A stretch of DNA of 64,000 bases from Streptomyces sp. Q6 (GTDB lineage Bacteria > Actinomycetota > Actinomycetes > Streptomycetales > Streptomycetaceae). Numbering within the stretch: position 1 is the first letter of the stretch; each line of letters begins with the position of its first letter. Positions 2,679 through 37,925 of the stretch are shown piece by piece. The notes under the pieces were generated by a model. It ran no database searches. It was not told the DNA's origin and was given only the letters and a program-made list of their open reading frames with translations. Both the position numbers and the translations under genes were made by a program. The DNA is taken from assembly GCF_036967205.1 (NCBI RefSeq), contig NZ_CP146023.1, positions 310,001-374,000 of the forward strand, written 5' to 3'.

Positions 2679-2679
2679 A

Positions 2680-8071: not shown

Positions 8072-8251
8072 ATGAACGAGCGACTCACCGACGCGTCCCG
8101 CCACACGCGTTTCGGAGTGCTTCCCGAGCGCGTCCGATTCGAGGACAGGACCGAGGAAGTGGAGACCGACCAGGGGCCCATCGGCGTGGCGTACATCCCC
8201 GAGGGCCCATGGAAGTACTACCCGTGCCTCGCGCTCGACATGGGGCTGTGA
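8072..8251 (+). CDS. Small hypothetical protein (59 aa)
   Basis: ATG at 8072 with an AGGGGAGA ribosome site 6-13 bp upstream gives a 59-residue acidic protein that starts MNERLTDASRHTRFGVLPER and ends PWKYYPCLALDMGL. There is no signal peptide or membrane segment, and I do not recognise a family. The strong ribosome site and the clean stop support it as a real gene. It is divergent from the hydrolase fragment. Confidence 0.5.
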   Translation: MNERLTDASRHTRFGVLPERVRFEDRTEEVETDQGPIGVAYIPEGPWKYYPCLALDMGL

Positions 8252-9285: not shown

Positions 9286-9297
9286 ACCCCGCCGCCA

Positions 9298-22331: not shown

Positions 22332-24955
22332 GACTGGTATCCCTTGGTCATGTCGACGGTGGCGTGCGGAGTGAGCGAGGCCACCAGGGCGCGTACGGCG
22401 TTGAGTTGGGCGGCGGCGCTGGCCGCGGCCTCGGGCAGCGGCCGTCCGCCGGCCGCCCGGTGGGCTCGGGCGTGGAGGGTCTTGACCTGGGTGGGGCGGG
22501 CGAGGTCGTGGAAGTCGTCATCGAGGTGCACGCCGGAGATGCGTACCGGGCCGACCCGTTGGCCGCCGACGGTGAATGAGGCGTAGTGCTCGTACAGGGG
22601 CAGGGCGATGACCTGGTCTTCGCTGGGGCGCTCGCCCCACTCCTCGGTCATGACCTTGATGACCCGGCGGGTGCCGGTGGTGGTGGCCAGGGTGGAGGAG
22701 TTCTGCAGCAGCGCTTCGCGGACGGCCTGGGGCAGGCGGGTCAGGGACTGGGACATGCCGTGGATGTGGACCTTGGACTTGCGGAGGTCTTCGAACATGG
22801 AGGCCACGGACTCGGGGGCGCTGCCCGCGATGGTGATCAGCTCGTCGAGGTAGCCGCGGAAGTCGATGCGGTCCCCGGGCGCCGTGTCGCGCCGCGAGCG
22901 TCCGGCACGCAGCAGTTCGTGGGCGATCAGGCTGGAGACGAGCCGGTCGTTGGGCCCGTTGCCCGCGGTGCAGATCCACACAATGCGCCGGGTGTCCATG
23001 GCCTGACGCAAGTTGAGGCGACCCTGCGCCTGGCCGAGGAAGGCGTGGTAGACGGGGTTTTGTGACAGCCGGGTCAGCGGGTTGAGGACGATGCCGAACG
23101 CCTCATAGGAGAGCGTCGGGAAGATCGTGTCCCACCAGGTGATCGCCTCTGCTCCGAGGTCGGCGCGAACGACCTGAAGCGCGGCGGTGCGGAAATTGGG
23201 GTCGGTCAGCAGGGCGCTGATGTGGAACACCGTGGCCTGGGCCTCGGGCTGTCCCGCGGCACAGGCCTTGGCGTTCAGGGCGGTCAGCACCTGCACGCAG
23301 TTGGTGAGGATGGTGATGCCGCGCGGCGTGTTGGAGTCGTCCCACTTCATGCCGGCGGCCAGGCCGTCGACGACGGCGTCGGTGACCTCGTGGCGCGGCT
23401 GCCCGTGACTCATGTCGAGCAGATTCCACGCGGCGACCGGCCGGGTGCCGTCGGCCGGTTTGAGGTCGACGACCTGCACCCGGCCCATGATCATGGGGTG
23501 GGCGAGGTAGGGGGAGGCACGGTGCCAGGAGTCGCCGTGCGGGTCGACGTAGAGCAGCCCGCCCCCGGCGTGCGCGACCGCGATCGCCTGGGCCACGGCG
23601 CGTTCGGTCTTCCCGGCGCCGGACTTGCCGAGACCGGTCTCGAACAGCGTCTCTGCGGCGTGCGTGGCCACCAGCCGCCGCGTCCCATCGCCCTCCACCA
23701 GGACGCCCTGCAGCAGCAGACCGGGATTGCCGTGCTCGAACGTGGGCAACTGGGCAGGCAGCAGCGGGAGTTGACAGTGCCGGGTCGGCGGCTTGAGCAG
23801 CCCCGTCAGCTCGGTCAGCCGGGCGAGGTTCGCCCCGGAGGGCCGGCACTGCCCCGTCTCCCAACGCCGCTGCCAGCTGCGCCGCCACGGCCACTGATCG
23901 GGCCCCCACCACCAGGCGAACAACCGCAGCCCGCGCGGCGCGAGCCGCGCCTCGTGCGAGAACACGGTGAAGCCGCCCTGCACCTGGGAGAGCAGGGCCC
24001 GTGCGCGGCCCTCGCGGTTGGAGGCGCAGCGGATCAGGATCTGTACCCGGGCCAGCGCGGTGTCGTCGGCCAGCTTGCCCAGCGCCTTGTCCTTGTCGAC
24101 ACGGCGCGCGTGCGGCACCACCAGCGGGGCCGCGGCCTGGTTGCGGCCCTGGGCGAGGGTGCGCAGCGAATCGGCGGCTGCGGCCACGTCCTGGCGCATC
24201 CACCGTGAGGCGGCCCGGGCCTCAGCATGCTCCTCTCCGCGGGCCCTTTGCATCATCTGCCACCGCTTCACGCGCACCGCCGTGCGCGGCGCGGGCTGCA
24301 GATCGATGGTGACCTCCACCAGATCGCCCAGATCACTCTTCAGCGAGGCCACGGCGTCCACGATCGGCTGCAGCGGATCCGGGTCCAGGGGCACCTCGCG
24401 CAGGTAGGAGGCTGGATTGCCGCGCAGAACCATCTCGCCGCGCACCTCGAACTCCCGCTGATCGCCGCCCTGTTCGCCGTCACCGCGGTCACGCTCGGCG
24501 TCATCGGACGACAGAACGCTTAGGGCCACGGCGTTGCCGAACCCGCTCACCCGCAGGAACTTCTCCGCGCCCGCCGGTCCTTCCATCTGGTAGGAGAGCG
24601 GGTGCGTCTGGTCCGAGCGCAGCCGGATCCGTACCGCCCGCGAGCGTTTGGGGGCCCACCACGGCAGGGCGTTCGCGGCCTGCAGCAGCTTCAGCCCCTG
24701 GCGCAGGACGCGTTCCTCGTCCGGGTCGAAGTACGGCGCGGGCGTCACCCTGAGCACGCACCGCTGCATCGAGGCCCGCGCGGCCAGCCGTGCACTGATC
24801 AACTCCCAGACGAGCCACCCCGTCACGGCGAGGAGCAGGGGCACGAACCAGTGCGCGACGAGCCACCATGCGGCCTGGCCCAGGGCGAAGGCGGCATCGG
24901 CGAAGCCGGGCAGTGCCTGCGGCGTCATGAGGCGGTGGGAGGAAGAGGTGTCCAT
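22328..24955 (-). CDS. VirD4/TraG-like type IV coupling ATPase
   Basis: About 875 residues. One or two membrane segments near the start (FVPLLLAVTGWLVWELISA), a long N-terminal soluble region, Walker A GKSGAGKT at about 443-450 followed by GGGLLYVDPHGDSW, and C-terminal motifs RIVWICTAGNGPNDRLV and GYLDELITIAGSAPESVASM with Walker-B-like acidic residues. Coupling proteins bring DNA or protein to the secretion channel. The start is the ATG at 24955 (after AAGAGAG) or the one at 24928, which overlaps the upstream stop. Confidence 0.9.
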   Translation of the reverse strand: MDTSSSHRLMTPQALPGFADAAFALGQAAWWLVAHWFVPLLLAVTGWLVWELISARLAARASMQRCVLRVTPAPYFDPDEERVLRQGLKLLQAANALPWWAPKRSRAVRIRLRSDQTHPLSYQMEGPAGAEKFLRVSGFGNAVALSVLSSDDAERDRGDGEQGGDQREFEVRGEMVLRGNPASYLREVPLDPDPLQPIVDAVASLKSDLGDLVEVTIDLQPAPRTAVRVKRWQMMQRARGEEHAEARAASRWMRQDVAAAADSLRTLAQGRNQAAAPLVVPHARRVDKDKALGKLADDTALARVQILIRCASNREGRARALLSQVQGGFTVFSHEARLAPRGLRLFAWWWGPDQWPWRRSWQRRWETGQCRPSGANLARLTELTGLLKPPTRHCQLPLLPAQLPTFEHGNPGLLLQGVLVEGDGTRRLVATHAAETLFETGLGKSGAGKTERAVAQAIAVAHAGGGLLYVDPHGDSWHRASPYLAHPMIMGRVQVVDLKPADGTRPVAAWNLLDMSHGQPRHEVTDAVVDGLAAGMKWDDSNTPRGITILTNCVQVLTALNAKACAAGQPEAQATVFHISALLTDPNFRTAALQVVRADLGAEAITWWDTIFPTLSYEAFGIVLNPLTRLSQNPVYHAFLGQAQGRLNLRQAMDTRRIVWICTAGNGPNDRLVSSLIAHELLRAGRSRRDTAPGDRIDFRGYLDELITIAGSAPESVASMFEDLRKSKVHIHGMSQSLTRLPQAVREALLQNSSTLATTTGTRRVIKVMTEEWGERPSEDQVIALPLYEHYASFTVGGQRVGPVRISGVHLDDDFHDLARPTQVKTLHARAHRAAGGRPLPEAAASAAAQLNAVRALVASLTPHATVDMTKGYQS

Positions 24956-25632
24956 GCGGTGCTCTCTTTGGTGGGGCGGGTGAAGGGGATGTCGGCCAGG
25001 CGGCCGTCGGTGTAGGTGCCGCCGCGGTCGGCCGCCGCCCACACCAGATGCACGACCGCCCGATGCGGCCGGATGGGATCGTGGCGGGCGATCGCGGCCT
25101 GGATACGGAACCGGGTGAACGCCGGGGCGACGGCGTCGCCGTGCACAGCGGCGGGAAACGCGGTCGGGAACGCCGCTTGGCCCCGTCCCGTCACGTCCGC
25201 GCGCAGCACCCGGGACGCCGTCGTGAGGAGCTGTGCGGTCTGCGCGGCGGGCAGGTCGGCAGGCCAAGACCGCTCGAGCAGCTGCTGAATGGCCCGGTCC
25301 CCGGCCCTGCCCTCGCCCCGCGGCGGCAATTCGCCCGCGGGCGACGGTGTTGGCGAGGAGCGCGGCCCGGGCGCAGAGGGGGAGGAGCGCGGCGCCGCCG
25401 GCGTGTGCCGCGTGGCGACCTCGTCTGTGCTCGGCGCCGCAGCCACCGCACTGCTGGTGGCCCGAGGCGCAGGTGCCGTCGGCGTGGAGGACGGGGAGGT
25501 GAAAGGGGACGACAGCAGAGGCCAGCCGATCACGGCGCATACGGCGGACAGCGCGAGCAGCAGCCACGGGAACGCCGGCCGTTGCCCTGCCGCCGCGGAC
25601 GTCGTGCGAGGACTGAAGGTCATCTGGGTCAC
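24925..25632 (-). CDS. Membrane-anchored hypothetical protein of the transfer operon
   Basis: 235 residues: one helix close to the N-terminus (FPWLLLALSAVCAVIGWPLL), an Ala/Pro/Ser-rich extracellular spacer and a folded end with VLRADVTGRGQAAFPTAFP, then RFRIQAAIARHD and AVVHLVWAAADRGGTYTDGR. That end looks like a conserved beta-rich domain, but I cannot name it. GTGA overlap with the upstream cell-wall hydrolase and an overlap of about 30 bp with the VirD4 gene show it is part of the transfer operon. Confidence 0.75.
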   Translation of the reverse strand: MTQMTFSPRTTSAAAGQRPAFPWLLLALSAVCAVIGWPLLSSPFTSPSSTPTAPAPRATSSAVAAAPSTDEVATRHTPAAPRSSPSAPGPRSSPTPSPAGELPPRGEGRAGDRAIQQLLERSWPADLPAAQTAQLLTTASRVLRADVTGRGQAAFPTAFPAAVHGDAVAPAFTRFRIQAAIARHDPIRPHRAVVHLVWAAADRGGTYTDGRLADIPFTRPTKESTAWTPLPPTAS

Positions 25633-26861
25633 AGGAGACGCGCCCCTCCCGCGTAGCCGGACATGGCGTCGACCGGGTCGAGGCGTACGACGGTGCCAGG
25701 CCGCGCAGCGTTGATCATCTGCCCGCCGCCGACGTAGATACCGACGTGGTAGATCGTCAAGTCCCGGCCCGGCGCGTATGCGAAGAACACCAAGTCACCC
25801 GGCTGCAGGGCGCCTTGACCGGCCGAGACGGTGATGCGGTGGCCGCGCGCAGCCTGCGCGGCCGCGGTGCGCGGCAGCCGGATGCCCGCCTGGGCGTACG
25901 CGTACGAGGTGAGCCCCGAGCAGTCGAACCCGGTGATCGACGCCCCGGACTTGCCGCTCGGCGAGCAGCAACTGCCCGTGGTCGGTCCGTTGGCTGACCC
26001 GCCGCCCCAGGAGTAGGACACCCCGCGCTGGGACAGTGCCGCCGTGAGCACGGTACGGGCCTTGCCCGAGACGCCCCTCAGGTTCACGGCGCCAGAGGAT
26101 GCCCTGGAGGCCGCCGTGTACTGGCTGATCCACTTCATGACATTGCTGACGTAGGCGTCCGATTGGTTGTACGCGAAGATCGCGGAGCGCAGCTGCGTGT
26201 TGACCCCGAGGTTGCGGCCGTCGCCGCACAGGTACGCGGCGGCGGCGAGCGCGGCGTCGTCGGCGTTGTGCGGATCCTTGGCACCGTCCTTGTTGCCGTC
26301 CTGGCCCTGCGACTCCCAGGTGGCGGGCATGAACTGGAAAGGCCCGACGGCACGTTCCCCGGACGCGAGGGCGTCCCACCGGCCGCCGTCGGTGTCGGCG
26401 AACACGGTCTTGTTGCCGCCCGCCCCGGAGCCGTTGAGCAGGACGCCGTAAATCTTCGGACGGACGTCGCCGTTGGCGGCGATGGTCCGGCCTGCGGCGT
26501 GGTTGGATTCGACCTTCGCGATCCCGGCGAGGACCGGCCACCGCATCCCCTTGCAGGCGGGCACGACACCGTGGATCCTCCCGACGGCGTTCTTGTAGGC
26601 CTGCAGCATCCGGGGCGGGACGTCCGCGCTGCTGCCCGCCCCGGCGAGCCCGATGTCCGCCTCGTCGCCGTTCTGCTGGGCGAGGACGGCGAGGCGGCCG
26701 GCCGCACCCGTCACGGTGGCCATGCAGCTCATCGCCAGACCGAGCAACACGAGGATGATCAGGCCCCACTTCAGGCCGCGGCGGCCCGGGCGCAGCCGAC
26801 GCTGATTGCGTGCGGGACGCCGGCCGGCCGGCCGCATCGGCGCGATAGGGAGGGTGCTCAC
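25629..26861 (-). CDS. Bifunctional lytic transglycosylase / NlpC-P60 peptidase (VirB1-like)
   Basis: 410 residues. One helix near residues 32-52, then a lysozyme-like SLT domain (LAGIAKVESNHAAGRTIAA with the catalytic Glu; AVGPFQFMPATWESQGQDGN), then an NlpC/P60 domain with Cys in SITGFDCSGLTSYAYAQAG and His in IYHVGIYVGGGQMIN. It cuts glycan and peptide bonds of peptidoglycan so the secretion channel can cross the wall. This pair of domains is standard in Gram-positive conjugation systems (Tn916 Orf14/CwlT type). GTGA overlap with the VirB6-like gene. Confidence 0.93.
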   Translation of the reverse strand: MSTLPIAPMRPAGRRPARNQRRLRPGRRGLKWGLIILVLLGLAMSCMATVTGAAGRLAVLAQQNGDEADIGLAGAGSSADVPPRMLQAYKNAVGRIHGVVPACKGMRWPVLAGIAKVESNHAAGRTIAANGDVRPKIYGVLLNGSGAGGNKTVFADTDGGRWDALASGERAVGPFQFMPATWESQGQDGNKDGAKDPHNADDAALAAAAYLCGDGRNLGVNTQLRSAIFAYNQSDAYVSNVMKWISQYTAASRASSGAVNLRGVSGKARTVLTAALSQRGVSYSWGGGSANGPTTGSCCSPSGKSGASITGFDCSGLTSYAYAQAGIRLPRTAAAQAARGHRITVSAGQGALQPGDLVFFAYAPGRDLTIYHVGIYVGGGQMINAARPGTVVRLDPVDAMSGYAGGARLL

Positions 26862-29635
26862 GGGGCCTCACCCCCGTCGTCGCCCTGGTCGGGGCGGCGG
26901 GCGTTGTTGTCCAGGATCCGGCGGAACATCGCCTCCGCGTCCCGCCGAGCGGCTACCGAGCGGCTCGGCCCGTACGAGGGACGGGAGCGCGGCTGCGGCC
27001 GCGGCACGCGGGAGGCGCTGCCCTGCGGCGGGGGCGTGGCGGCCGGTCCCGCACTGCTGGGCGGCGCAGCCGAGGCCGGGCGGCCGGAGGGCGCTGCCCC
27101 TTGCCCGCTCCCGCCCGGCGTGACGGGCGGCCGGGGAGGCGGCGCAGTCGGCCGCAGCCCCGGCATCCCAGTGACCGGCCTCGGTGACCGTGCGCCGGCC
27201 ACACCGCTACCCGCCGACACTCCCGAGGCCGGAGTGCCCCAAGGAGCAGGACCGGCGGCCGACCCGGTGGAGGTCGGCGCGGGACTCATCCGGCGCCCGC
27301 TCGCCGTCGGCCCGCTGCCCGCGGGCTGGTGCAGCATGCTCGTCCAGGCCCGGCCGTCCTGGCGCAGGGTGTTGCCCCACACGCGCAGCTGCTGACGCGC
27401 GTCGGCCGTAGCCGTCGACGTCCCCGACGCCGCGGTGCGCGCCGTGGAGGGCAGCGCCATGGTGGCGCCGTAGAGCACCCGCCCGCCCTGGTAGGCCAGG
27501 CGGTAACCCCGCAGCCGAATGAGCGAGTTGTGCGCGCGGGTCGACAGCAGCGTCCGGTCCACGTTCTGGTCGTGCAGGGTCGCGCCGGTGTCCGGGTCCT
27601 TGATCTCGCCGTTCTCGTCGCGATAGCGGTCCGCGGGCCCGCCTGCCGGCCCGTTCGGGCCGAGCCGCCCGCCACCGGGGCCGCCGCCCGGGCCTGCGCC
27701 ACCCGGCCCCATCCCGGCGGCAGCGGTCGGGTCGTCGCCCGCAGCGGTCGGCTTGCGCAGCGACGCCAACTTCGCGCCGTCGGGCCGCTTCCCGACCAGG
27801 AGGCCGAAGGCCGCGCCCGCCGCGAGGCGGCCTCCGGCCACCGCGAGACCGAACGGGGCGAGACCGCGCGAGGCCTCGGCGTTCGCGTCCGCGAGAAGGC
27901 GCCTGGGGTCCCCGGGCATCCCCGCACCGTCGGTCAGACCACCGTGCACCCCCTGCATCAACGAGGACGTGGTCAGTCCCAGTCCGGTGGCGCCGCGGCC
28001 ACGCAGGGACCCGGTGGCCAGGTATCCGCCGGCGCCGCCGCTCATGGCCAGGGCAGCGCCGAGCTGGGAGTCACCGGCCAGGTGGCTGCCGCCGACACTC
28101 GCGTACCGCATCCGCAGCGTCATCCGCTGCCCGAAGCTGGTGATCAGCACCAGCAGCCGACGGTGGAAGGCGATCCCGACCAACGCCAGCACATCGATGA
28201 GGAGCAGGCGTTCGGCCAGCAGATCGGGACCGTCGGTCAAGATCACGTCGATGGTGATGCCGACGGCCGGAATGAACGTGGCGATCGCGAGGATGATGGC
28301 CATCGAGATCCCGAACAGCGCCAGCCACCGCCACACCACCGAACGCGACGGCCCCGGCAGCATGCCCCACACCCACGTGATGCCGCCCGCCGCCGCGGCT
28401 CCGGCACAGACCGCGGCCACGCCGGTCAGGGCGACGGCCGCGGACAGCAGCAACGCGATGATCAACAGGGCGGCGATGAACACCATCCCGACCGCGGACA
28501 CCCGCCACCAGGAGGGCGCGGCCGCGTACGCCGCGCACTTCTTGCCGACCGGCCCGGACTTCTTCAAATCCTCAAGGAACGCGCCGAACTCCTGGTCGTC
28601 CTTGGAGACGATGGGCATGAGCGCACTGAACGCATCGCTGCCGAGGGTGATCTTCGGGTAGTCGTTGGGGTTGAAGGGCTTCTGGCCGCGTTCGCAGTAC
28701 TTGTGCGCAGGCCCGTGGATCTTGCGGCACGGATCGTTCTTGTCCGTGTTCTTCGGGGTCGCCACCTTGTAGCCGCCGGAGACCCACTTGAGGTGCACGG
28801 CGTACGCGGCGCGGTCCGCGGGCTTGGACGGGTCCAGGATCCGGCCGTACTCGAGGAGCATGAACGGCTTGACGACCATGGCGTTGGTGACGGCGTCCTG
28901 AATCGGCTTCGCGATCTTCTCGGCGTCCGGCGTCGTGGCCTCCTGCACGCCGTAGCACTTGTTCATGGCGTTGCCGACCAGCCCGGAACACGGATCGTCG
29001 GAGGCGATCTTGCCGCCCCACGAGTAGGAGCTGACCGTCTTCTGCGCGATCTCCGCTGCCGCGGACTGCGTCTGCAGCAGCGGACCGTCCTTGCCGAGCA
29101 GGAAGTTCGGCGTGACGAACACGGAAGCGGCGACGGCGCCGATCACCAAAGTGAGCGCGATCTCGCCCCAGCCCTTGGCGTGCTTGCCGCGCATCACCAT
29201 CACCAGGCCGAACACGAACGCCCAGGCCAGCAGCGTCGATTTGAGATCGAGCTCGTTGACGACCGTGTCGGTGTAGAGCTCGGACAGCCGCTGGGCGGGC
29301 GCCGCCAGGAGCTTCAGCAGGGGGAAGCGGTAGGCGACCTCGATCGCCCAGCACGCCAGACCGATCCCCACCCGGATCACGGTGAACAGCCCGCTGAGCA
29401 CCATCACCTGCAGGTTGCCGGCGAAGTTCATCAGGCTGCCGCTCTGCGCCCCGAGCTCATAGTTCTTGATCGAGACGCCCTCGGAGGTCGTGATCTCCAG
29501 CGGCGACAGCAGCCCGTCGCTCGAGCCTGCCGCATCGGCGCCGTAGGCGACCGAGGTGTTGACGGTCAAGAACACCGTCATCAGCAGCGCCGTGAAGCCG
29601 GCGGCACGCAGCGTTCCGCGATCCGGGCGCCGCAT
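26858..29635 (-). CDS. VirB6/TrbL-like polytopic membrane protein
   Basis: 925 residues. A signal-like helix at the start, then about 8 membrane segments including LLAWAFVFGLVMVMRG and VFIAALLIIALLLSAAVALT, with a large extracellular loop containing three CxnC-like pairs (DDPCSGL, MNKCYGV, NDPCRKIHG, KYCERG). The last 350 residues are Gly/Pro/Ala-rich and probably cytosolic. Size, topology and position between VirB4 and the hydrolase match the VirB6-like channel of Gram-positive type IV systems. ATGA overlaps on both sides. Confidence 0.82.
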   Translation of the reverse strand: MRRPDRGTLRAAGFTALLMTVFLTVNTSVAYGADAAGSSDGLLSPLEITTSEGVSIKNYELGAQSGSLMNFAGNLQVMVLSGLFTVIRVGIGLACWAIEVAYRFPLLKLLAAPAQRLSELYTDTVVNELDLKSTLLAWAFVFGLVMVMRGKHAKGWGEIALTLVIGAVAASVFVTPNFLLGKDGPLLQTQSAAAEIAQKTVSSYSWGGKIASDDPCSGLVGNAMNKCYGVQEATTPDAEKIAKPIQDAVTNAMVVKPFMLLEYGRILDPSKPADRAAYAVHLKWVSGGYKVATPKNTDKNDPCRKIHGPAHKYCERGQKPFNPNDYPKITLGSDAFSALMPIVSKDDQEFGAFLEDLKKSGPVGKKCAAYAAAPSWWRVSAVGMVFIAALLIIALLLSAAVALTGVAAVCAGAAAAGGITWVWGMLPGPSRSVVWRWLALFGISMAIILAIATFIPAVGITIDVILTDGPDLLAERLLLIDVLALVGIAFHRRLLVLITSFGQRMTLRMRYASVGGSHLAGDSQLGAALAMSGGAGGYLATGSLRGRGATGLGLTTSSLMQGVHGGLTDGAGMPGDPRRLLADANAEASRGLAPFGLAVAGGRLAAGAAFGLLVGKRPDGAKLASLRKPTAAGDDPTAAAGMGPGGAGPGGGPGGGRLGPNGPAGGPADRYRDENGEIKDPDTGATLHDQNVDRTLLSTRAHNSLIRLRGYRLAYQGGRVLYGATMALPSTARTAASGTSTATADARQQLRVWGNTLRQDGRAWTSMLHQPAGSGPTASGRRMSPAPTSTGSAAGPAPWGTPASGVSAGSGVAGARSPRPVTGMPGLRPTAPPPRPPVTPGGSGQGAAPSGRPASAAPPSSAGPAATPPPQGSASRVPRPQPRSRPSYGPSRSVAARRDAEAMFRRILDNNARRPDQGDDGGEAP

Positions 29636-30066
29636 CACAGCCTCCGGCGGCGACGGGACAGGACGTACAGCGTGCCCAGGCCGAGTGCGAGGGCGCCCAC
29701 GGGCCAGGAGCGGGCGAGGGTGATCCCCTGCGCTGAAGCGCTCGCTTCCTGACCGCGCAGGCAGTAGGCGTGAGCCGGGCCGACGATGGTGTCGCACACG
29801 CTCGAGTCGCTGGGGGCGGCGGGCCGGGCGCTGTCCTCGGTCTGCCCGGGAGCCGCCCCCTGCGGTGCGGTGACCGCTTCGGCGGCGCGCGCGGAGGGGG
29901 AGGTGGGGGAGGCGGCGAAGGCGCCTCCGGTCTGCGGCCACCAGGCCGCCGGCACCCCAGGGGCGCAGATCACGAACACGATCGCCGTGATGAGCAGGGC
30001 GATGACGGCGAACAGCAGGCTGAGGGAGCCGAGTTGACGGCGGAGGTCGACGAAGCGCTGGTTCAT
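29635..30066 (-). CDS. Small membrane protein of the transfer operon
   Basis: 143 residues. One helix near the N-terminus (LSLLFAVIALLITAIVFVIC), an Ala/Pro/Ser-rich extracellular spacer, a CDTIVGPAHAYCLRG pair of cysteines and a second helix followed by a basic RRRRR tail. The phrase GPAHAYC echoes GPAHKYCERG in the neighbouring VirB6-like protein, so the two may share a small Cys motif. I do not recognise a family. It overlaps both neighbours by 4 or fewer bp. Confidence 0.75.
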   Translation of the reverse strand: MNQRFVDLRRQLGSLSLLFAVIALLITAIVFVICAPGVPAAWWPQTGGAFAASPTSPSARAAEAVTAPQGAAPGQTEDSARPAAPSDSSVCDTIVGPAHAYCLRGQEASASAQGITLARSWPVGALALGLGTLYVLSRRRRRL

Positions 30067-32750
30067 GCCAAGACTCCCTGACCGGGGGCGGGGGTGTGCT
30101 CGCCGGGGGTGGTGCGGATGTGGTCGTCGATCCGTGGCACCGCCGGAATGCGGACCTTGATACGGCCGGTGTTCTGCCGCGGGCCTGTCAGCAGGAACTC
30201 GCCCGCGCGCTCGCGGTGCCCGACCGGCGAGAGTTCGGTCGTCACGGTGCGCAGCAGGTCCTCGTCCCTGCCGTCCAGGCCGATGAAGTTCAGGCCGCGG
30301 CGGGCCGAGTCCCGGTCGGCGGTGCGCCCCAGGAGCTTGTAGGCGAACAGGTTGGCGTCCTCGCCCAGTTCCTTTGCGTCATGGGCCGCCGCGATGAGGC
30401 CCGCGTTGTGCTTGCGGCCGTCGTGCAGGATCTCGTGGACGAGCGCGCTTCCCTCGGCGGAGCTGGTCAGCCAGTACATCTCGTCGGTGACCACGGCACA
30501 GAACCGGTCCAGGTCACTGAACGCCGCCTGCCGGGCCATGGCCGCGATCAGGTAGAGCACGGCCCGGCCGATCAGCGCTTCGAGCGGCTGGTGCTGCAAG
30601 ATCTCCGGCTTCTCGAACGCCACCCGGGGTGGCAGGACCAGCCCGGTCGTGGTGATGACGAGCAGGTCGGCGGTCGCATCCCCATCGAGCCGGGCGACGG
30701 GCAACTCCGGGTCGAAGATCATCGCGGCGAGCGGGTTGGTGGTGACCAGGCGGAGCATGCCGACCAGGGTCTTGGCGGCATCGGTGCGCTCCCCGGACCC
30801 GTCGGCCGCGGTCTGCGCGAGGATCTCCACGACGCCGGACATGGACGGCTCGGGCACGGATGCGGCCTGCTCCACGGCGTGGTGCAGGACCTCGCCCTGC
30901 ACGCTCATCAGCGGGATTCCCAGCTGCAGGCTCAGGTAGTTCAGGGCGTAGCGGCGCCCCTCGGGGCCGGGGAACAGACGCAGCGGGTCGATGGACAGCT
31001 CGGCGCGGGCGGCGTCGATGATCTGGTAGCGGCCCGGGGCGGAGCCGCGGGCGAAGCGGGCCCATTCGCGGGCCGGGGTACGGTCGATACAGATCGCGCG
31101 GCCGCCGCGGTCCACGACCGCGCTCTCGACCAGCTTCCCGAACGCGCTCTTCCCGCCGCCCAGATCACCGATCGCGGCCACCGACGCGGACGCGTCGCGC
31201 TTGGGCGCGTCGGAGACGTTGATCAGCACGGGGCGGGTGGTGCCGCAGTCCAGATCGCGGCCCAGCAGCATCCCGGTCGGATCGCCGACCTCGCTGCGGG
31301 TGAACGCGCCGGACATCGCCCAGTCCTCGCCGAGCTGGTTCTGGCGGAACTCCCGCACCGCATACGGGCGGACGCTGCCGGGCAGCCCGAGCGTGAACAG
31401 ATCACTCTGCAGCCCGGTCGGCCGCAGCATCCGGTAGTCACACCCGGCGAGCAACTTCTCCAGAGCGCGCGCCCGCGCGTCGCACAGCTCCGGGCTCGGC
31501 GCCCACACAGTGAGCACGGTGACCGCCTGCACCTCGACCTCGGCCGAGGTCCGCGCCAGGCGGGTGTCCTCCTCGTCCAGGTCCCGCTCGGCCTCGGGGA
31601 TCGCGCGCGGCGCACCGGTGGGGCGCGCCGCGTACTGATCGACCTGGTCGACGAGCTCACTGCGCTTCGCCTGGATCTTGCGGCGGGCCTCGGCGGAGTC
31701 GATCAGGCCGAGGCTCACGGTGAAGTCGACCGGAAAGTCGAGGACTTCGAGCTGCGCGAAGAGATCGGCGGCCTGCTGCGAGACGGCCGGCGGGGCCTCG
31801 GCGAGCACCAGGTGCGCCTGATAGCCGGTCCCGGCGGGGGACTCGACCTGCAGCCACTGACGCCGGATCGGGGAGGTGGCCTCCTTCCACCACTGCCGTG
31901 TGGTGCGCCGTGATGAGGCCCGCTTCGTACGGGAGGGCCCAGCCCGCCATCCGCGGGCCTTCGCCTCCGTGGTCGCCACGGCGGCCGTGCGGGGGCGGCC
32001 GCCTTCCTCGAGGCGGATCTGTCCGAGGTCGGCGTAACTGGGCGAGTGCAGCGCACCGTCACGGACCCGGCCCGCATACAAGGGGGAGGCGGACGCATCG
32101 GCCAGAAGGGGTTCACGCAGGCCGCGGTGCACCGCGTGCTGCACCAGCCACACGATCTCGGCCGGCGTGGCGGGCCGGAACGGCACCGAACCGGTCATCT
32201 GCGCCTCGACCTGATGGGCCGTCTCCTGCGCCTGACGCACCTCGGTCTCACTGACCGGTGACGGCGTCAGGCCGAGCGCGTCCACATACTCGCCCCATGC
32301 ACCCCAGGTGATGCCGCGGGTCAGCAACGACGTCTTCGCCGCCCGCTCCTGTGTGTTGAGCGGCACCGCGAGCCACAGGGTGCGGGTGTGCATCTCCCGG
32401 CCGTCCAGCTCGTCCAGGGCGGCCTCGACGTGCTCGAGCCACGGACGCGCGCCCGGCTGCAGTTCACCGTCCGCGTCGTGCAGGCCCTCGAGCATCCGCC
32501 AGGCGATCTCGGACGGATCTAGCTGAGCGCACACCCCGAACAGGCGCGGCTCACCGGACAGCGAGCGCACCAGCTGGGTGATGCGCTGCAGCTGCTCCTC
32601 GCGCACCGCAGCGGACACGTAGGCGCCGGTGACCGCCTCAGCGCTGTGACCGCGCTCGCCCGCAGCGGGGTGGAGCCGGTAGACGGCCCAGGTGTGCCCC
32701 TCGGTGGACCACAGCAGATGACCGGCAAGGTGTTGCATCGGAACGCGCAT
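30063..32750 (-). CDS. VirB4/TraC-like ATPase
   Basis: 895 residues from the ATG at 32750. The N-terminal half is the VirB4-type docking region of actinobacterial systems (SCO6880-like). Walker A is GDLGGGKS at about 528-535, with the second acidic motif in FCAVVTDEMYWLTSS and a conserved HDGRKHNAGLIAAAHDAKEL near the end. It energises assembly and substrate passage of the type IV channel. ATGA overlaps with the PrgI-like gene and with the small membrane gene. Confidence 0.92.
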   Translation of the reverse strand: MRVPMQHLAGHLLWSTEGHTWAVYRLHPAAGERGHSAEAVTGAYVSAAVREEQLQRITQLVRSLSGEPRLFGVCAQLDPSEIAWRMLEGLHDADGELQPGARPWLEHVEAALDELDGREMHTRTLWLAVPLNTQERAAKTSLLTRGITWGAWGEYVDALGLTPSPVSETEVRQAQETAHQVEAQMTGSVPFRPATPAEIVWLVQHAVHRGLREPLLADASASPLYAGRVRDGALHSPSYADLGQIRLEEGGRPRTAAVATTEAKARGWRAGPSRTKRASSRRTTRQWWKEATSPIRRQWLQVESPAGTGYQAHLVLAEAPPAVSQQAADLFAQLEVLDFPVDFTVSLGLIDSAEARRKIQAKRSELVDQVDQYAARPTGAPRAIPEAERDLDEEDTRLARTSAEVEVQAVTVLTVWAPSPELCDARARALEKLLAGCDYRMLRPTGLQSDLFTLGLPGSVRPYAVREFRQNQLGEDWAMSGAFTRSEVGDPTGMLLGRDLDCGTTRPVLINVSDAPKRDASASVAAIGDLGGGKSAFGKLVESAVVDRGGRAICIDRTPAREWARFARGSAPGRYQIIDAARAELSIDPLRLFPGPEGRRYALNYLSLQLGIPLMSVQGEVLHHAVEQAASVPEPSMSGVVEILAQTAADGSGERTDAAKTLVGMLRLVTTNPLAAMIFDPELPVARLDGDATADLLVITTTGLVLPPRVAFEKPEILQHQPLEALIGRAVLYLIAAMARQAAFSDLDRFCAVVTDEMYWLTSSAEGSALVHEILHDGRKHNAGLIAAAHDAKELGEDANLFAYKLLGRTADRDSARRGLNFIGLDGRDEDLLRTVTTELSPVGHRERAGEFLLTGPRQNTGRIKVRIPAVPRIDDHIRTTPGEHTPAPGQGVLA

Positions 32751-33391
32751 CAGCGCTCTCCCTTCATACGCTGGGCGGCGAGCAGCGCGGCCTCCACCGG
32801 GGACAGCACTCGCCGCCCCGCAGCCGTGGCGGTCGGCTCGCCGGCCGGCCGCGCGTGCGGGCCCGGCCCGACGGGGCGCCGCGTACGGCGCACTGGGCGC
32901 ATCCGCTCGGCACCAACCGGGCTCTCGGCCTGCTGCGCGCGCCGGTTCGAGGACGGTGCGGACGGCTTCGTGGTGGTGCACGCACCATTGGAGGGCAGGG
33001 GCTCGAGGGACTGCAGGGTGAAGGTGCCGGTGAGCTTCTGGGGGCGCCGATCCCGGGCGGGGCGCCCGCCGATCCGGCCCCCGGCCGGCTGCGCGAGGCG
33101 GGCCGCGACACCGAGGAGCGCGCCGACGGGGGTGCGGCCCGCAATCCGGTGCTTGCGGCACAGGAAGATCAGCGCCAGCCAGGCGATCACCGGAACCGGG
33201 CCGAGTACCGGCCACCACAGCGAGGCGCTCTTGACCAGGACCAGCCCGCCCAGCGACATCAGCGCAACCTGGACGGCGTTGAACGGGCCGAGCGGGATGC
33301 GCCAGTCACCAAACTTCCCGATCACCCAGGGCAGTTGGCGCGCCATCGTGTAGAAGCGGGCGACGCGCACCGGCGTGGTCCCCGCGCTCAT
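32750..33391 (-). CDS. PrgI/VirB3-like membrane protein (SCO6880 type)
   Basis: 213 residues. The N-terminus VRVARFYTMARQLPWVIGKF and GDWRIPLGPFNAVQV is typical of the actinobacterial PrgI-like proteins encoded just before VirB4. Two membrane segments (VALMSLGGLVLVKSASLWW; VPVIAWLALIFLCRKH) follow and the C-terminal half is basic and disordered. VirB3/PrgI proteins recruit VirB4 to the membrane. ATGA overlaps on both sides. Confidence 0.85.
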   Translation of the reverse strand: MSAGTTPVRVARFYTMARQLPWVIGKFGDWRIPLGPFNAVQVALMSLGGLVLVKSASLWWPVLGPVPVIAWLALIFLCRKHRIAGRTPVGALLGVAARLAQPAGGRIGGRPARDRRPQKLTGTFTLQSLEPLPSNGACTTTKPSAPSSNRRAQQAESPVGAERMRPVRRTRRPVGPGPHARPAGEPTATAAGRRVLSPVEAALLAAQRMKGER

Positions 33392-33738
33392 GCCGCACCT
33401 CGCCCAAGGCCCGCACCCCGAACGCCCGGCGCCAGCTCCTGGCCGCCCTCGCCGTAGGGCACATGGAGCACGGGAGCGCCCTTGGTCGGGTTGTTGACCT
33501 CGTCCTCGACCTTGTCCGCCATCTGCTCGCGGGCGTTGTACAGGCCGAGCGCGAGAATCATCATCAACAGGGCGCCGACGCCGGCCTTCAGGCTGAACCG
33601 GGTGACCAGCACGTAGACGACGATGATGGCGAGCGCCACCTTGAGCGCCCCGTCGGCCCAGCCCTTGAACATGCCGATCCAGGAGTTGCCGAGATCGTTC
33701 AACTCACCGGCCAGCACCACCTGGTGCAGGGTGTTCAC
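33388..33738 (-). CDS. VirB2/TcpD-like small two-helix membrane protein
   Basis: 116 residues. Start MNTLHQVVLAGELNDLGNSW, then two hydrophobic stretches (LKVALAIIVVYVLVTRF; AGVGALLMMILALGLYN) and a short soluble end with a Gly-rich tail. Position between TcpC and PrgI fits the small VirB2- or TcpD-like component; with no sequence signature this is inferred from order and topology. ATGA overlap with both neighbours. Confidence 0.7.
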   Translation of the reverse strand: MNTLHQVVLAGELNDLGNSWIGMFKGWADGALKVALAIIVVYVLVTRFSLKAGVGALLMMILALGLYNAREQMADKVEDEVNNPTKGAPVLHVPYGEGGQELAPGVRGAGLGRGAA

Positions 33739-34637
33739 TGCTCCTCACCGCCGCCCGAGGTGAGCGCGGCGATCTCCCACCGGCCGCCGCGCGCGGCGAG
33801 GGTCAGCTCGTACGACAGCGGCCACCGGCCCGCGGCGCTGTGCGCTGTCGCGGAGGCCTGGACGTGCACGCGGGTGCCGTCACCGGGCACCTGCTGACCG
33901 GCGGTGGCCTGCTCGCGGCCGCTGACCGTCTCGAGGCCGACCTGATCGGCGACCGCCGGGGTGACCGCCGCCAACTCGGTGCGCGGGGCGAGGTAGCGCT
34001 CGACCTCGCCGCTGCCCGACAGATACGCGGACAGGAAGTCGCCGACCGTCTCGGTCAGCGGCCCCTGCGGCACGTCGACCGTGTAACGCGACGCCGCGGT
34101 CTTCACCGTGCCCGGGCCCGCGACGAGCGCCGGCGTCCCGAGCACCGTCACCGCGGAGCCCGAGGACGACGCGGAGACAGGAACGGCGAAGTAGCGCACC
34201 GCATCGGTGTCCTGGACGGCGACGGTCACCGACCACAGGCCGTGCGCGCCCCGCACGCTGCGCACCGCGCTCACCCGCTGCGGCGCCTTCGCTCCGTCGA
34301 CCGGCTCGGGCAGCTGCACGTTGGGGCCGAGCTGCTGCGCACGCAGGGCGAAGCGGCTCTCCGGCCGGCTGGCATCCGCGCGCAGCCAGGCGTCGATGAA
34401 CTCGGCGGCATATCCGCCCGGATCGACGGCGACGGACGCCTGCGTGGTGCGGACCGGCGCCGGGGTGGCTTGCGCGACGACCCGCACGTTCGGCTGGGTC
34501 ACGGTGAAGGCGAGAGCGAGGGGACCGGCGACCAGGCAGGCCCACACCCCCGCCCGCCCCATCCGCACCCGCCGTCGGGTGCGCTCCAGATCGAGGCCGG
34601 CCACGGTCGGCGGACCCTCGTGTGGTGATGCTGGCAT
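33735..34637 (-). CDS. TcpC/VirB8-like conjugal transfer protein, first gene of the operon
   Basis: 300 residues from the ATG at 34637, which has a perfect AGGAGAA ribosome site. One membrane helix (AGVWACLVAGPLALAFTV) is followed by two tandem NTF2-like domains: AAEFIDAWLRADASRPESRF and later VGDFLSAYLSGSGEVERYLA. This is the TcpC layout of Gram-positive conjugation (structural relative of VirB8). The gene starts the 13-kb minus-strand transfer operon; tandem half-sites at 34691-34714 lie about 55 bp upstream. Confidence 0.88.
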   Translation of the reverse strand: MPASPHEGPPTVAGLDLERTRRRVRMGRAGVWACLVAGPLALAFTVTQPNVRVVAQATPAPVRTTQASVAVDPGGYAAEFIDAWLRADASRPESRFALRAQQLGPNVQLPEPVDGAKAPQRVSAVRSVRGAHGLWSVTVAVQDTDAVRYFAVPVSASSSGSAVTVLGTPALVAGPGTVKTAASRYTVDVPQGPLTETVGDFLSAYLSGSGEVERYLAPRTELAAVTPAVADQVGLETVSGREQATAGQQVPGDGTRVHVQASATAHSAAGRWPLSYELTLAARGGRWEIAALTSGGGEEQ

Positions 34638-34690
34638 CGGCGTTCTCCTGTGCAGCAAAAGCGGTTGATGCCATGACGAAACCCGGCAGC

Positions 34691-34714
34691 GCGCACCGGT
34701 TTACGCACCGGTTT
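34691..34714. promoter_or_regulatory. Tandem 12-bp direct repeat near the tcpC-like start
   Basis: GCGCACCGGTTT followed at once by ACGCACCGGTTT (11 of 12 identical). It lies about 55 bp upstream of the first gene of the transfer operon. The heptamer GCGCACC is a one-base variant of the complement of GGTACGC, so it may be the same half-site in the other direction. Confidence 0.65.
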
Positions 34715-34749
34715 TGGGGGGCTGCGATTGCGAAAGCGTCACGATGGAG

Positions 34750-34773
34750 CCGGTACGCAATCCGGTACGCGCT
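34750..34773. promoter_or_regulatory. Paired GGTACGC half-sites, 12-bp spacing
   Basis: CCGGTACGCAAT followed by CCGGTACGCGCT: two GGTACGC heptamers (34752-34758 and 34764-34770) on the same face of the helix. Same arrangement as at 35429 and 35940. Confidence 0.65.
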
Positions 34774-35428
34774 CTCGCCGGGCCACAGCCGAACGCGCAC
34801 CGGGCGACGGTCCGGCACAACGGGCGGTGCACCGCTGCAACGAAGAGGCGACGACGGCCGCGCGCACCCGTGAGGCCCCTCGGCGCATCCCTGTGCCGGC
34901 ACCTGACGGTGGCCACTGAACGTCACGGACGGCCGCGTGCGCACCGAGCGATCGCCTACCGCGCACCGGGGCGTGGTCCATCTCGGATCGGGCTGCGCAC
35001 CGATCACGTCGGGCGGGCGCAAGGACGGCATCCCGGCCCCGCATACGAGCGGGCGCGGCTCCGGATCGGGTACTGCGCACCCGCCGCCGGGACAGCGCAC
35101 GCTCAGCCTGCGCAGCACCTGGCCCGGACGTCGGCGCACCGGGCGGGCCCCGACATGGGACTGCGCAGTCCCAGCGAGAGGACACACCTGCGCAGCCTCC
35201 GGCCCTCAGCGGAGCACCCACCCAGCGGCCACCGGACGACGGCTGCGCACCGAACTCGACCACCGGTGCCGCAATGCCCGCGACGACCGGTACCCCCGCC
35301 CCGAGCCCCCCCCCGCCGCGAACGCGTACCGGTCACCGCCACCCCACCTCATGGGGCGAGTGCGACGCCCGCCCCGGCGGGGGAATCTGCATCCTCGCCA
35401 GGGCCGTGACCTGGGCAGAGCAACCACT

Positions 35429-35447
35429 GGTACGCGTTTTGGTACGC
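35429..35447. promoter_or_regulatory. Paired GGTACGC half-sites, 12-bp spacing (middle of region)
   Basis: GGTACGC at 35429-35435 and 35441-35447, separated by GTTTT. Two single complementary GCGTACCGG sites lie nearby at about 35323 and 35469. Confidence 0.6.
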
Positions 35448-35868
35448 CCTTAGAAGCGCCCCGGAAAACGCGTACCGGCCACCGCGACGGCCGGCCGGCC
35501 CGGACCCGTCCTGGACATCTGGGCGCCCCCCAGAGGGCGCCGACATGGGGCCGGTGCGCGTCTGGAAAACAAACGCGCACCACCGGCCGGCCTTGCGCAG
35601 TAGCTGCGACAGAGCGCCCAACTCTCTGCACAACCCGCGCTGCACATCCGCCACGCACCCACTGCGCACCACAGACTGCGCACCTCCTCGGTGCGCTGCG
35701 CGAACCCTCAGACCGCATCCTGCGCAGCACCCCGCGTGCGCCGCTGCGCACCCGCAGCGCCCGTTCGCCGCGCAGCACTCCGCTGCCCCCTGCGCAGCCG
35801 CCGCCCGCTCGGTGCGCACCTGGCGCCACGCCACACCGGCGCCACGCGTCCTCTACCGACGTCGAGAC

Positions 35869-35892
35869 GCGCACCGGTCTGCGCACCGGCCA
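35869..35892. promoter_or_regulatory. Tandem 12-bp direct repeat upstream of winged-helix gene
   Basis: GCGCACCGGTCT followed by GCGCACCGGCCA. This mirrors the pair at 34691-34714 on the other side of the region. It lies about 145 bp before the start of the winged-helix gene. Confidence 0.65.
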
Positions 35893-35939
35893 CTTGGTGA
35901 CGCACTGTGATGGAACCGTGATCGCGCCGCCGGGGAATC

Positions 35940-35958
35940 GGTACGCGATCCGGTACGC
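35940..35958. promoter_or_regulatory. Paired GGTACGC half-sites upstream of winged-helix gene
   Basis: GGTACGC at 35940-35946 and 35952-35958 with GATCC between. It lies about 80 bp before the GTG start at 36037, a good place for an operator of an autoregulated gene. Confidence 0.65.
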
Positions 35959-36036
35959 CCCGCCGGGTCAACTCCGTCATGAACAACGATCTACGGCCTG
36001 CCGTGGCGTACGGATCCCGGACGGGGGAGTGAACAG

Positions 36037-37149
36037 GTGAGCCAAGCACCCAGGCGCTTCGGCGGGTTGATTCAGCGTGGCCCGATGGCCATCGATGTGA
36101 TCGGCGCCCACTACACGACGGTCTTCAACCACGCCGTCCGCGACCGCCGACTGTCCCGCCGCGCGCGTGGCCTTCTGGTCGAGCTGCTCAGCCACCGCGA
36201 CGGCTTCGGCATCTCGCTGGTGATGCTGCTGCGAGGCGGGCCCGAGGGGAAGGACGCACTGAGCGCGGCGCTCCGCGAACTCGAGCAGCACGGCTACCTT
36301 CACCGCGAGCGAGAGCGCGATGCCCGCGGCCGCCTGGGCGAGGCCCGCTACTACCTCACCGACATGCCCGAGGGGCTCGCGATCGCTGCTCAGACCCCAT
36401 GGCAGCCGGCCGCGCACGGCAGTGCGCGGCCGGACGGCGACGGCTCACCGCCCGATGCGCGTCGTCGCAGGCCAGCACCTGAGCCGGAAAATCCGCTGCT
36501 GGAGGAGCCAGGGCAAACGGCCAGGTCAGAACCTGAGTCGGGTTTTCCTGCGCAGGCTGACCCAGGGCAGGGGAATCTGCCCCCTAAGAAGAACAACTCC
36601 AACAAGACCACCGAGCAGAACACCATCCCCATCCCTCCGTCCGCGACATCCGGGCCGTGCTCGCCCCCGACGCGGTCGCCGAGATCTGACGCCGCGGCCG
36701 CCGCACGGGGGGAGCAGGTGCTGCTGTCGATCGGCCGTCACCACCCCGAACTGCACGCCGCGTTGGCCACCGGCCACACCCTCGCCGATCAAGCCCCGCT
36801 CGTCGGCCGCCTTCTGGAAAGCGGAGTGAGCCGCGAGCACATCCGCGAGACGCTCGTCGGCCGTCCCTACCCGGCACCGCACGAGCGGACCCACTCGCTG
36901 GCCGCGCTCGTCGGCGCGCGCCTCAAGCAGCTCGCGCTTCTCGCCGCGGCCGACCGGACTCGCGAACCGGGGCCAGCGCACCAGCCCCCAGCCTCCGCGG
37001 CTCCACCGACGGGCAGGACGGCGCTCGACACCGTCGCGATCCGGCACGAGTGCCCGGGGCAGGACGGGATGTGCGGGCGCCCCGTCGGCGCGCCCGGCGA
37101 GCTCTGCCCGCTCTGCACCCGCCTGACCGCGGACTCTTCAACTGCCTGA
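36037..37149 (+). CDS. Winged-helix DNA-binding protein, possible replication initiator or transfer regulator
   Basis: 370 residues, GTG start with GGGGGAG upstream. The N-terminal 115 residues form a winged helix: VRDRRLSRRARGLLVELLSH, then GKDALSAALRELEQHGYLHR with the wing GEARYYLTD. A Pro/Ser-rich linker of about 100 residues follows, then a helical part (GRHHPELHAALATGHTLADQ) and a Cys-containing end (HECPGQDGMCG, LCPLCTRL) that could bind zinc. Such helix-turn-helix proteins are common on Streptomyces plasmids and integrative elements. The operator-like pairs upstream suggest self-regulation. Confidence 0.75.
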   Translation: MSQAPRRFGGLIQRGPMAIDVIGAHYTTVFNHAVRDRRLSRRARGLLVELLSHRDGFGISLVMLLRGGPEGKDALSAALRELEQHGYLHRERERDARGRLGEARYYLTDMPEGLAIAAQTPWQPAAHGSARPDGDGSPPDARRRRPAPEPENPLLEEPGQTARSEPESGFPAQADPGQGNLPPKKNNSNKTTEQNTIPIPPSATSGPCSPPTRSPRSDAAAAARGEQVLLSIGRHHPELHAALATGHTLADQAPLVGRLLESGVSREHIRETLVGRPYPAPHERTHSLAALVGARLKQLALLAAADRTREPGPAHQPPASAAPPTGRTALDTVAIRHECPGQDGMCGRPVGAPGELCPLCTRLTADSSTA

Positions 37150-37187
37150 TCCACAATGGGAATCACACAGCGGCGGGGGAGACACAG

Positions 37188-37925
37188 ATGCTGGCAGTGA
37201 TCGTGGCCGCGGCCGCGTGGGGAGCGGTGACCGGCTGGTGCGCCCAGGCGGCGCTCTACCGCCTCTCGGTCCCGGTCGGCGACCCCTGGCAATCCACCTG
37301 CCCCGCTGGCCATCGCCTGCCCAGCGGCGCCCGCACCTGGCTCCTGCCCGTGTGCCCGGCCGGCGGGCACCACTACGGTGACCGACGCTCGGTGGGCGTG
37401 GTCTGCGCTGCCGCGGCCGCGATCTGCGGCGTCCTCGCCTCAGCCACTGGAGCCCGCCCTGAGCTGGTCGCCTGGCTGCTTCTGGCTCCGCCCGCGCTCG
37501 TCCTCGGCCTCATCGACGCCCGCGTACACCGGCTCCTCGACAGACTTACCCTGCCGCTCGCCGCCGCGGTCCTCCTACTGCTCGCCGCCGCCAGCCTGTT
37601 GCCGGATTCGGCCGGCTCGCTCCCCACCGCGGCGCTCGGCTGTGTGGTTCTCGGCGCCGTGTTCTCGGTGATGTTCTTCATCAGCCCCCGCGCCATGGGC
37701 TTCGGCGACGTGAAGCTCGGCCTGTTCATCGGCGCGACGCTCGGCTGGTACGGCTGGAGCACCCTGCTGTACGGCGTACTCGTCGGCCACATCCTCGCCG
37801 CCGGGTACGGCATCGTGCTCATCGCCCGGGGCAAGGCCACAGCGAAGACGCCCATCGCGCTCGGACCACCTCTGCTCCTCGGTGCACTCCTCGCGCTCGC
37901 GGCAGGCGCCGCTGCCGTGCACTGA
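37188..37925 (+). CDS. A24 family prepilin peptidase
   Basis: 245 residues from the ATG at 37188 with GGGGGAGA upstream. About seven membrane segments. The two catalytic Asp sites are visible: LVLGLIDARVHRLLDRLTLP and the hallmark GFGDVKL at about 171-177. It cuts and possibly methylates prepilins; here the likely substrates are the TadE/G proteins and the small pilin-like protein of the minus-strand tad operon, although the gene lies on the other side of the transfer operon. A cytosolic Cys pair (STCPAGHRLP...LPVCPAG) is present as in long-form enzymes, though incomplete. Confidence 0.88.
   Translation: MLAVIVAAAAWGAVTGWCAQAALYRLSVPVGDPWQSTCPAGHRLPSGARTWLLPVCPAGGHHYGDRRSVGVVCAAAAAICGVLASATGARPELVAWLLLAPPALVLGLIDARVHRLLDRLTLPLAAAVLLLLAAASLLPDSAGSLPTAALGCVVLGAVFSVMFFISPRAMGFGDVKLGLFIGATLGWYGWSTLLYGVLVGHILAAGYGIVLIARGKATAKTPIALGPPLLLGALLALAAGAAAVH

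Follow-up and report, generated by a model that had tools for sequence, protein, structure and literature searches.

A TGCGCA palindrome array at the head of a Tcp-type tra operon in Streptomyces sp. Q6 as a candidate MOBC-type transfer origin merged with tra promoters

The stretch of DNA analysed here (the window, 64,000 nucleotides of Streptomyces sp. Q6) corresponds to positions 310001–374000 of contig C2 (385,579 bp including 978 N), which is accompanied by an 8.57-Mb contig, C1. At the right end of C2, the final 280 bp fold as a tandem of hairpins (z −4.4) resembling a Streptomyces telomere; C2 is thus a probable linear plasmid, with the feature under study ~40 kb from this end. A matching inverted repeat was not found at the left end of C2, and that end may be incomplete. 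Within the window, a gene-free gap of 1378 bp (34659–36036), a candidate transfer origin and divergent promoter region, lies between a Tcp-type tra operon running leftward and a gene running rightward from position 36037. The operon opens with tcpC (33735–34658, minus strand, as are all operon genes given here; VirB8-like, PF12642). The other operon genes encode a VirB4/TcpF-like ATPase (30063–33218; PF12846, with a partial match to NF052333 far below cut-off), a large protein lacking Pfam and NCBIfam matches that by its position may be a membrane subunit (26858–29941), a cell-wall hydrolase of NlpC/P60 plus transglycosylase type (25629–26861), a 1079-aa protein lacking a Pfam match, a putative coupling ATPase by position only (22328–25567), and, adjoining the latter, a Replic_Relax protein (21414–22331; PF13814, E 4.9e-24), the candidate MOBC-type relaxase. 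At locus L027, the neighbor of Replic_Relax is annotated as ATP/GTP-binding. TcpC/VirB8-like protein, VirB4/TcpF-like ATPase, and NlpC/P60 hydrolase share one operon, as befits a Tcp-type type IV secretion system (T4SS), and the Replic_Relax gene carries the only PF13814 match in the genome. The rightward gene (36037–37149, plus strand) encodes a winged-helix DNA-binding protein with a C-terminal Cys motif. A T2SSE-type ATPase (16260–17753) and a prepilin peptidase (Peptidase_A24; 37050–37925) are also found near the tra genes, which suggests a Tad-like pilus on the plasmid.

The gap holds a dense field of short repeats. Direct counting in 34691–35892 (1202 bp) yielded 16 copies of GCGCACC, 3 of its inverse GGTGCGC, and 15 TGCGCA palindromes, exactly the numbers that the preliminary description had given as approximate; the array reaches slightly past these coordinates within the gap. 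Dinucleotide shuffles of the same stretch (n = 500) gave means of 1.18, 0.39, and 0.79 and maxima of 6, 4, and 4, respectively, and the earlier expectation of fewer than one copy each was thus nearly right, holding for GGTGCGC and TGCGCA and slightly exceeded for GCGCACC. A count over the whole replicon, as had been proposed, identified the array as the densest peak of both motifs on C2, with 18 copies of GCGCACC on either strand in the top 1200-bp stretch against 6 in the runner-up, and 15 against 6 for TGCGCA. TGCGCA density amounts to 10.9/kb in the array gap compared with 0.56/kb across the 81 other C2 gaps of at least 500 bp between genes called in the present analysis, the next-richest of which reaches 6.2/kb. 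That second-richest gap (window 8105–8916, 5 copies in 812 bp) is located downstream of tra/Tad genes. In a chromosome control of 400 kb, taken as 20 even samples out of 8.57 Mb, maxima per 1202 bp were 4 for TGCGCA and 6 for GCGCACC/GGTGCGC. The same density in other gene-free regions, which would have spoken against a specific feature, was found neither among the 81 C2 gaps nor in the chromosome sample.

The reported strand bias is real inside the array (16 versus 3) but absent from C2 as a whole (133 GCGCACC versus 146 GGTGCGC). It recurs in the nearest relative, L022 from Streptomyces sp. SID14478 (protein 79% identical, layout alike), whose gap contains 17 TGCGCA, GCGCACC at 10:1, and the words GGTACGC/GCGTACC. 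The array of a second relative, L155, holds 7 direct and 6 inverted copies. As the bias is missing there despite being shared by L022, it is probably dispensable.

The motif composition of the gap required a revision of the repeat unit. GCGCACC had been regarded as the unit; two motifs are present instead, TGCGCA and GCG[T/C]ACC, which overlap in TGCGCACC. A one-motif reading was given up for one with two, a TGCGCA array and a replicon-specific heptamer that occurs in 12-bp pairs. The palindromes form a left block of seven (34938–35249; at 34938, 34994, 35074, 35109, 35162, 35189, and 35244) and a right block of eight (35594–35885; at 35594, 35663, 35677, 35721, 35745, 35791, 35813, and 35880). 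Heptamer pairs of the form GGTACGC-N5-GGTACGC are positioned on the plus strand on the side of tcpC (34752–34770), in the middle (35429–35447, with single GCGTACC words at 35324 and 35470), and upstream of the winged-helix gene (35940–35958); these three are the only exact pairs on C2. GCGCACC is a one-letter variant of the heptamer word and likewise forms pairs with 12-bp spacing at both gap edges, GCGCACC-N5-ACGCACC near tcpC (34691–34709, plus strand) and GCGCACC-N5-GCGCACC near the winged-helix gene (35869–35887, plus strand). Close to each promoter, the heptamers are adjoined in constant orientation by a core, NTCGTGAYC with variants, which reads CATCGTGACGC toward tcpC (34736–34746, minus strand, ~80–90 bp upstream of the tcpC start) and ACCGTGATCG toward the winged-helix gene (35915–35924, plus strand, ~115–120 bp upstream of its start). 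The latter core has an equivalent position in L022 and L155.

We compared this layout across 20 tcpC loci, namely 18 that were hand-picked from hit lists comprising 196 tcpC-matching plasmid records, plus the window and L022. The gap table covers loci other than L023, L027, and L035; in L045 and L048 the gap is bounded by the tblastn match instead of an annotated tcpC start, in L051 and L052 two small genes lie between tcpC and the gap used, and genes in unannotated stretches were called by a GC-position script. In 13 of the 20 loci, the gap preceding tcpC contains at least 7 copies of TGCGCA, against an expectation of 0.16–0.98; three gaps hold 2–4 copies and four hold none. TGCGCA is absent from the gaps before five winged-helix relatives without an annotated adjacent tcpC, and the array therefore tracks tcpC, not gene 36037. 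Remote plasmids with the gene order tcpC, gap, winged-helix gene retain TGCGCA in most cases, and their heptamer word is replaced by CCGACCA/TGGTCGG or CCCTCCA/TGGAGGG. The exchange of the word keeps its grammar, direct heptamer-N5-heptamer pairs at 12 bp. DNA similarity searches among plasmids returned just one 49-bp match (E 9e-3) for the window gap and no match for the L022 gap.

Several of these loci show further peculiarities. TGCGCA clusters extend into the tcpC reading frame in L152–L154, L156, and L157, and the sole cluster of L152 lies inside the frame. In L156 and L157, a Replic_Relax protein 56–57% identical to that of the window is encoded ~11 kb from tcpC. The L049 gap (2452–3527), upstream of tcpC and with zero TGCGCA, contains 18 copies of CGGTCAC on either strand at 38–39-bp spacings. 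An inverted repeat is situated just upstream of tcpC in L024, L028, L032, and L047; its arms vary (AGGTCAG/CTGACCT versus CAGGTAG/CTACCTG) and complementarity is kept, so a hairpin or attenuator is possible.

The 12-bp rule holds in 18 of 21 gaps (the 20 tcpC gaps and one split winged-helix gap, several of them related), compared with at most 8 in 200 shuffles, for a rule that was found post hoc. Exact heptamer repeats at 12 bp also occur in 25 of the 81 unrelated C2 gaps and in 2 of 8 other control gaps, and the shuffle null is therefore too kind. The spacing profile is a stronger sign than the shuffles: in eight chosen representatives, 56 matches fall at 12 bp, 35 at the next spacing, and the median is 7 over spacings of 8–60 bp. 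TGCGCA spacings in nine loci favor a period of 11.0 bp (R 0.37, jitter p 0.0005); since these loci are partly homologous, helical phasing was given no weight.

Array and edge modules are separated in nature. Locus L155 (G060) resembles the window (tcpC 64% and winged-helix protein 61% identical), but other genes, including a Mutator transposase and pentapeptide- and trypsin-like genes, lie between the two. Its array of 14 TGCGCA (8910–9507) is separated by 5.2 kb from tcpC and by 6.5 kb from the winged-helix gene, and both genes retain a core with exact or near-exact 12-bp heptamer pairs. Conversely, L099 (G041) and L100 (G012) carry 9 and 11 TGCGCA per 500 bp, directly from the 3′ terminus of a solitary Replic_Relax gene onward, and tblastn (E 1e-6) revealed no tcpC, VirB4, or winged-helix match in 18 kb at either locus. 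Among 29 sampled Replic_Relax loci, these arrangements are rare: an array is present within ~1.5-kb flanks in two. The heptamer-core module also occurs on its own, without the array, ~70 bp before Replic_Relax (SAP1; a 70-kb plasmid without a TcpC match), and heptamer-plus-core elements mark Replic_Relax promoters in SAP1, L063, L081, and L096. Heptamer-bearing stretches in L064, L065, and L066 have no annotated Replic_Relax in the stretch fetched. Such a distribution of the heptamer-core element is equally compatible with a regulon and with an oriT. Because the two parts are separable, the edge modules can be likened to promoters within a transfer regulon, and the array to an independent cis site accompanying conjugation genes. 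Architecture, recurrence, association with tcpC or Replic_Relax, and separation from the promoters are properties of the loci themselves.

Could the whole gap be an operator, a divergent control region for the tra operon and gene 36037 in which the repeats are sites for the winged-helix protein or a host factor? Heptamer pairs and core stand in fixed orientation ~70–150 bp upstream of tcpC, the winged-helix gene, and four Replic_Relax genes, and there is good evidence in these positions that the edge modules are promoter elements. The array itself does not follow this logic. It is intact in L155 at 5–6.5 kb from both genes, in L099 it lies where a solitary Replic_Relax gene ends, ahead of a called gene that is convergent to it, and in the window 15 palindromes spread over ~950 bp, far more than operators usually need. 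We therefore regard control of transcription alone as an unlikely function for the gap.

Near-end copies of the heptamer-core element were recorded as well. The SAP1 locus L098 (75238–94287) is subtelomeric and encodes two Replic_Relax proteins, a sigma factor, an ATP-dependent ligase, and a DEAD/DEAH helicase near the end, with the core element 68 bp before one Replic_Relax gene. In 23 of 41 plasmid records, counted irrespective of topology, the best heptamer-core match lies within 20 kb of an end of the record, and some of these plasmids also carry the element at tcpC. This may reflect a role near the telomeres or an association with transfer genes at the ends.

A scan of 61 Streptomyces genomes with a triple-TGCGCA pattern matched in 19 of them, and the reversed control in 26; single matches are thus at chance level and only rich clusters count. 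The pattern misses the array of C2 itself, in which spacings are wider than allowed, and is unusable as a density control. At least 10 TGCGCA within ~3 kb were found in five places among the matches listed: a tcpC relative is adjacent in G025 and G050, tcpC lies 5.2 kb off in G060, and a solitary Replic_Relax is the neighbor in G041 and G012:C5. Including three further places in G012, all with tcpC relatives, the eight places accompany a tcpC relative in six cases, one of them fragmentary, and a solitary Replic_Relax in two. The remaining pattern matches gave no tblastn match to the eight query proteins within 3-kb loci.

Replication was another function suggested for the field, in which the array would be a vegetative origin (oriV) and the 36037 product its iteron-binding initiator. 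Distant relatives of 36037 directly precede DnaB-type helicase genes (annotated dnaB in L037 and L038, a DnaB N-domain in L025), and iteron-plus-Rep origins are known in Streptomyces, as described for pWTY27 (PMC3583192). Unlike these relatives, 36037 has no dnaB downstream, DnaB_C has no match on C2, and TGCGCA is lacking in the gaps of the five relatives that have no tcpC next to them, three of which precede DnaB-type genes. C2 moreover contains a second repeat field near mid-contig, from 185,201 (L012:5201–5900), with 13 ACGGGAC in 1200 bp. This field precedes a prim-pol-like frame (read from its translation, with no model match) and then a D5_N helicase gene (PF08706, E 3e-30), and a ParA gene (177,995–178,933) lies ~6–7 kb away. 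The second field is likely the real replication origin of C2; the GC skew of C2 did not show a clean origin. The pWTY27 repAB region, as reported, resembles the array in its dense direct and inverted short repeats in non-coding DNA beside a gene for a DNA-binding protein, but as a primase/polymerase-plus-iteron locus its origin role better fits the 185-kb field next to the D5-helicase gene (PMC3583192). In 15 fetched linear plasmids, the median distance between the tcpC locus and the nearest end is 0.13 of the plasmid length, L024 and L049 being near-middle exceptions, which also argues against an origin of replication. With the second field, its D5-helicase gene, and ParA at hand, an oriV was rejected as the main reading and appears very improbable. 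In 14 of the same 15 plasmids tcpC is directed away from the nearest end, the exception being L028.

A further alternative is a centromere-like partition site. Centromeric repeat arrays serve several partition types according to the account in PMC13245405, which also gives the parS of SCP1 as three copies each of 13-bp and 19-bp inverted repeats around parAB operons. In a search of C2 with PF02195 and PF13614, adjacent parAB genes were missing: the sole AAA_31 (ParA-type) match at 178 kb is 166 kb from the array and the sole ParB_N match at 376 kb is 30 kb from it. An array is furthermore present beside a solitary Replic_Relax inside a 10.46-Mb contig. Partition was rejected on the missing parAB genes and is, to our judgment, very improbable.

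The setting of the array points to conjugation. It heads a tra operon that also holds the Replic_Relax gene. We favor a site acting in cis for conjugation; most probably, it is where the relaxase binds within an oriT at the head of the Tcp-type T4SS operon, a reading that we hold to be somewhat better than even. For the gap as a whole, the best reading combines a MOBC-type transfer origin with promoters of the tra genes. Of the functions envisaged in the preliminary description (replication, partition, transfer, or a large operator), transfer is retained as the best fit together with operator-like edges, and replication, partition, and a pure operator are disfavored. At this locus, short repeats make up a candidate cis site in the neighborhood of relaxase and tra genes; such an array is missing in 4 of the 20 tcpC gaps and in 27 of the 29 Replic_Relax flanks. 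The distance of 12.3 kb between the array and the relaxase gene of the window also counts against an oriT, as do the TGCGCA clusters that extend into tcpC at other loci.

PF13814 is described as the MobC (MOBC) relaxase domain of streptococcal mobilizable elements, used by CONJscan (PMC5357655), and serves as a relaxase model elsewhere too (PMC11104534, PMC12479173). The MOBC prototype, TraX of the Enterococcus plasmid pAD1, is reported to combine a winged-helix N-terminus with a restriction-type catalytic domain (PD-(D/E)XK-type active site) and to bind five direct repeats in oriT, 70–120 bp from nic (PMC12857230). Six aligned Replic_Relax proteins share an invariant D157...E179-x-D181...K193, similar in order, as we read the motif, to the TraX active site, and the N-terminus gives a weak match to MarR winged helices (E 0.012); Replic_Relax may have both a winged-helix N-terminus and D/E-type catalytic residues. 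Its structure prediction (mean pLDDT 36.4) was too poor for a fold comparison, and relatives were not found in viral contigs. The likeness to pAD1 consists in a PF13814-type relaxase candidate and a binding site built of repeats. In contrast to the five direct repeats described there, 15 palindromic hexamers are spread over ~950 bp of a high-GC actinobacterial, probably linear plasmid, far from the relaxase gene.

An alternative within conjugation is a clt-like site for a double-strand-DNA translocase of TraB/FtsK type, in place of an oriT for a nicking relaxase. Streptomyces clt loci are described as short-repeat fields (pWTY27, pJV1, pIJ101, pSVH1; PMC3583192), and an FtsK-type gene on pSTRVI01 (L065) is followed on its 3′ side by a stretch bearing the heptamer. 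The operon in the window is nevertheless a T4SS with a Replic_Relax gene, and neither the genes flanking the array nor nine tra-side genes yielded an FtsK match above cut-off; the sole match among the latter is sub-threshold (E 0.029), in the T2SSE-type ATPase, and 22328–25567 and 26858–29941 lacked any Pfam match in this comparison. We consider a clt-like site improbable.

The winged-helix protein offers a candidate for the heptamer pairs. The 36037 product itself has no Pfam or NCBIfam match; its relatives match HTH_36, and homology to the L024 protein is evident (E 2e-42). A PDB profile search with the relatives gave no E below 0.78, and the structure prediction of 36037 (mean pLDDT 42.5) was too poor for fold comparison. 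In the clostridial pCW3, which likewise has a Tcp-type T4SS (TcpC, TcpF-like) and a winged-helix gene beside a repeat-bearing site, the accessory protein TcpK is reported to bind a 9-nt oriT repeat (PMC6137059), and we liken it to 36037 by fold class. The pCW3 relaxase differs, as TcpM is described as tyrosine-recombinase-like (PMC5357655). The oriT sites of the pWBG749 family with SmpO resemble the gap in that an unvarying core is accompanied by accessory sites that keep their spacing but are specific to the subtype and differ between plasmids, so that oriT specificity is switched around the core; as described, SmpO is a ribbon-helix-helix protein, the relaxase is another, and the site is much shorter (PMC8136818).

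By analogy with these systems, Replic_Relax would load onto the TGCGCA array, and the 36037 protein would bind the replicon-specific 12-bp heptamer pairs (GGTACGC; variant GCGCACC) bordering the array and both promoters. Binding of the heptamers by 36037 might provide specificity and tune the tra operon as well as its own expression, and the nicked strand would be passed to the T4SS via the operon ATPases. This assignment of proteins to motifs, with nicking and transfer, is what we infer from sequence. The 36037 protein may act as a relaxosome accessory, a regulator, or both.

A broader picture is conceivable, and we put it forward tentatively. Large linear Streptomyces plasmids may carry a MOBC-type origin of a new format, in which a long array of TGCGCA palindromes is combined with interchangeable heptamer pairs that hold plasmid identity, each read by its own winged-helix protein; the origin would lie at ~0.1 of the length from one telomere, facing inward, and chromosomal relaxase-plus-array cassettes might mobilize other replicons. 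Transfer initiation in Streptomyces plasmids with a Tcp-type T4SS is seemingly undescribed in the literature searched: titles listed for TGCGCA with Streptomyces, for T4SS/oriT with linear plasmid, and for TcpC with transfer origin included no oriT for such plasmids. Current typing classes 142 of the 196 tcpC-matching plasmid records as non-mobilizable. A candidate oriT and relaxase would make the conjugation of these plasmids directly testable, and their mobility typing could be corrected. The heptamer switch would be a natural system for changing transfer or regulatory specificity at kept spacing and, if the transfer origin is confirmed, big Streptomyces plasmids would gain a testable starting point for conjugation.
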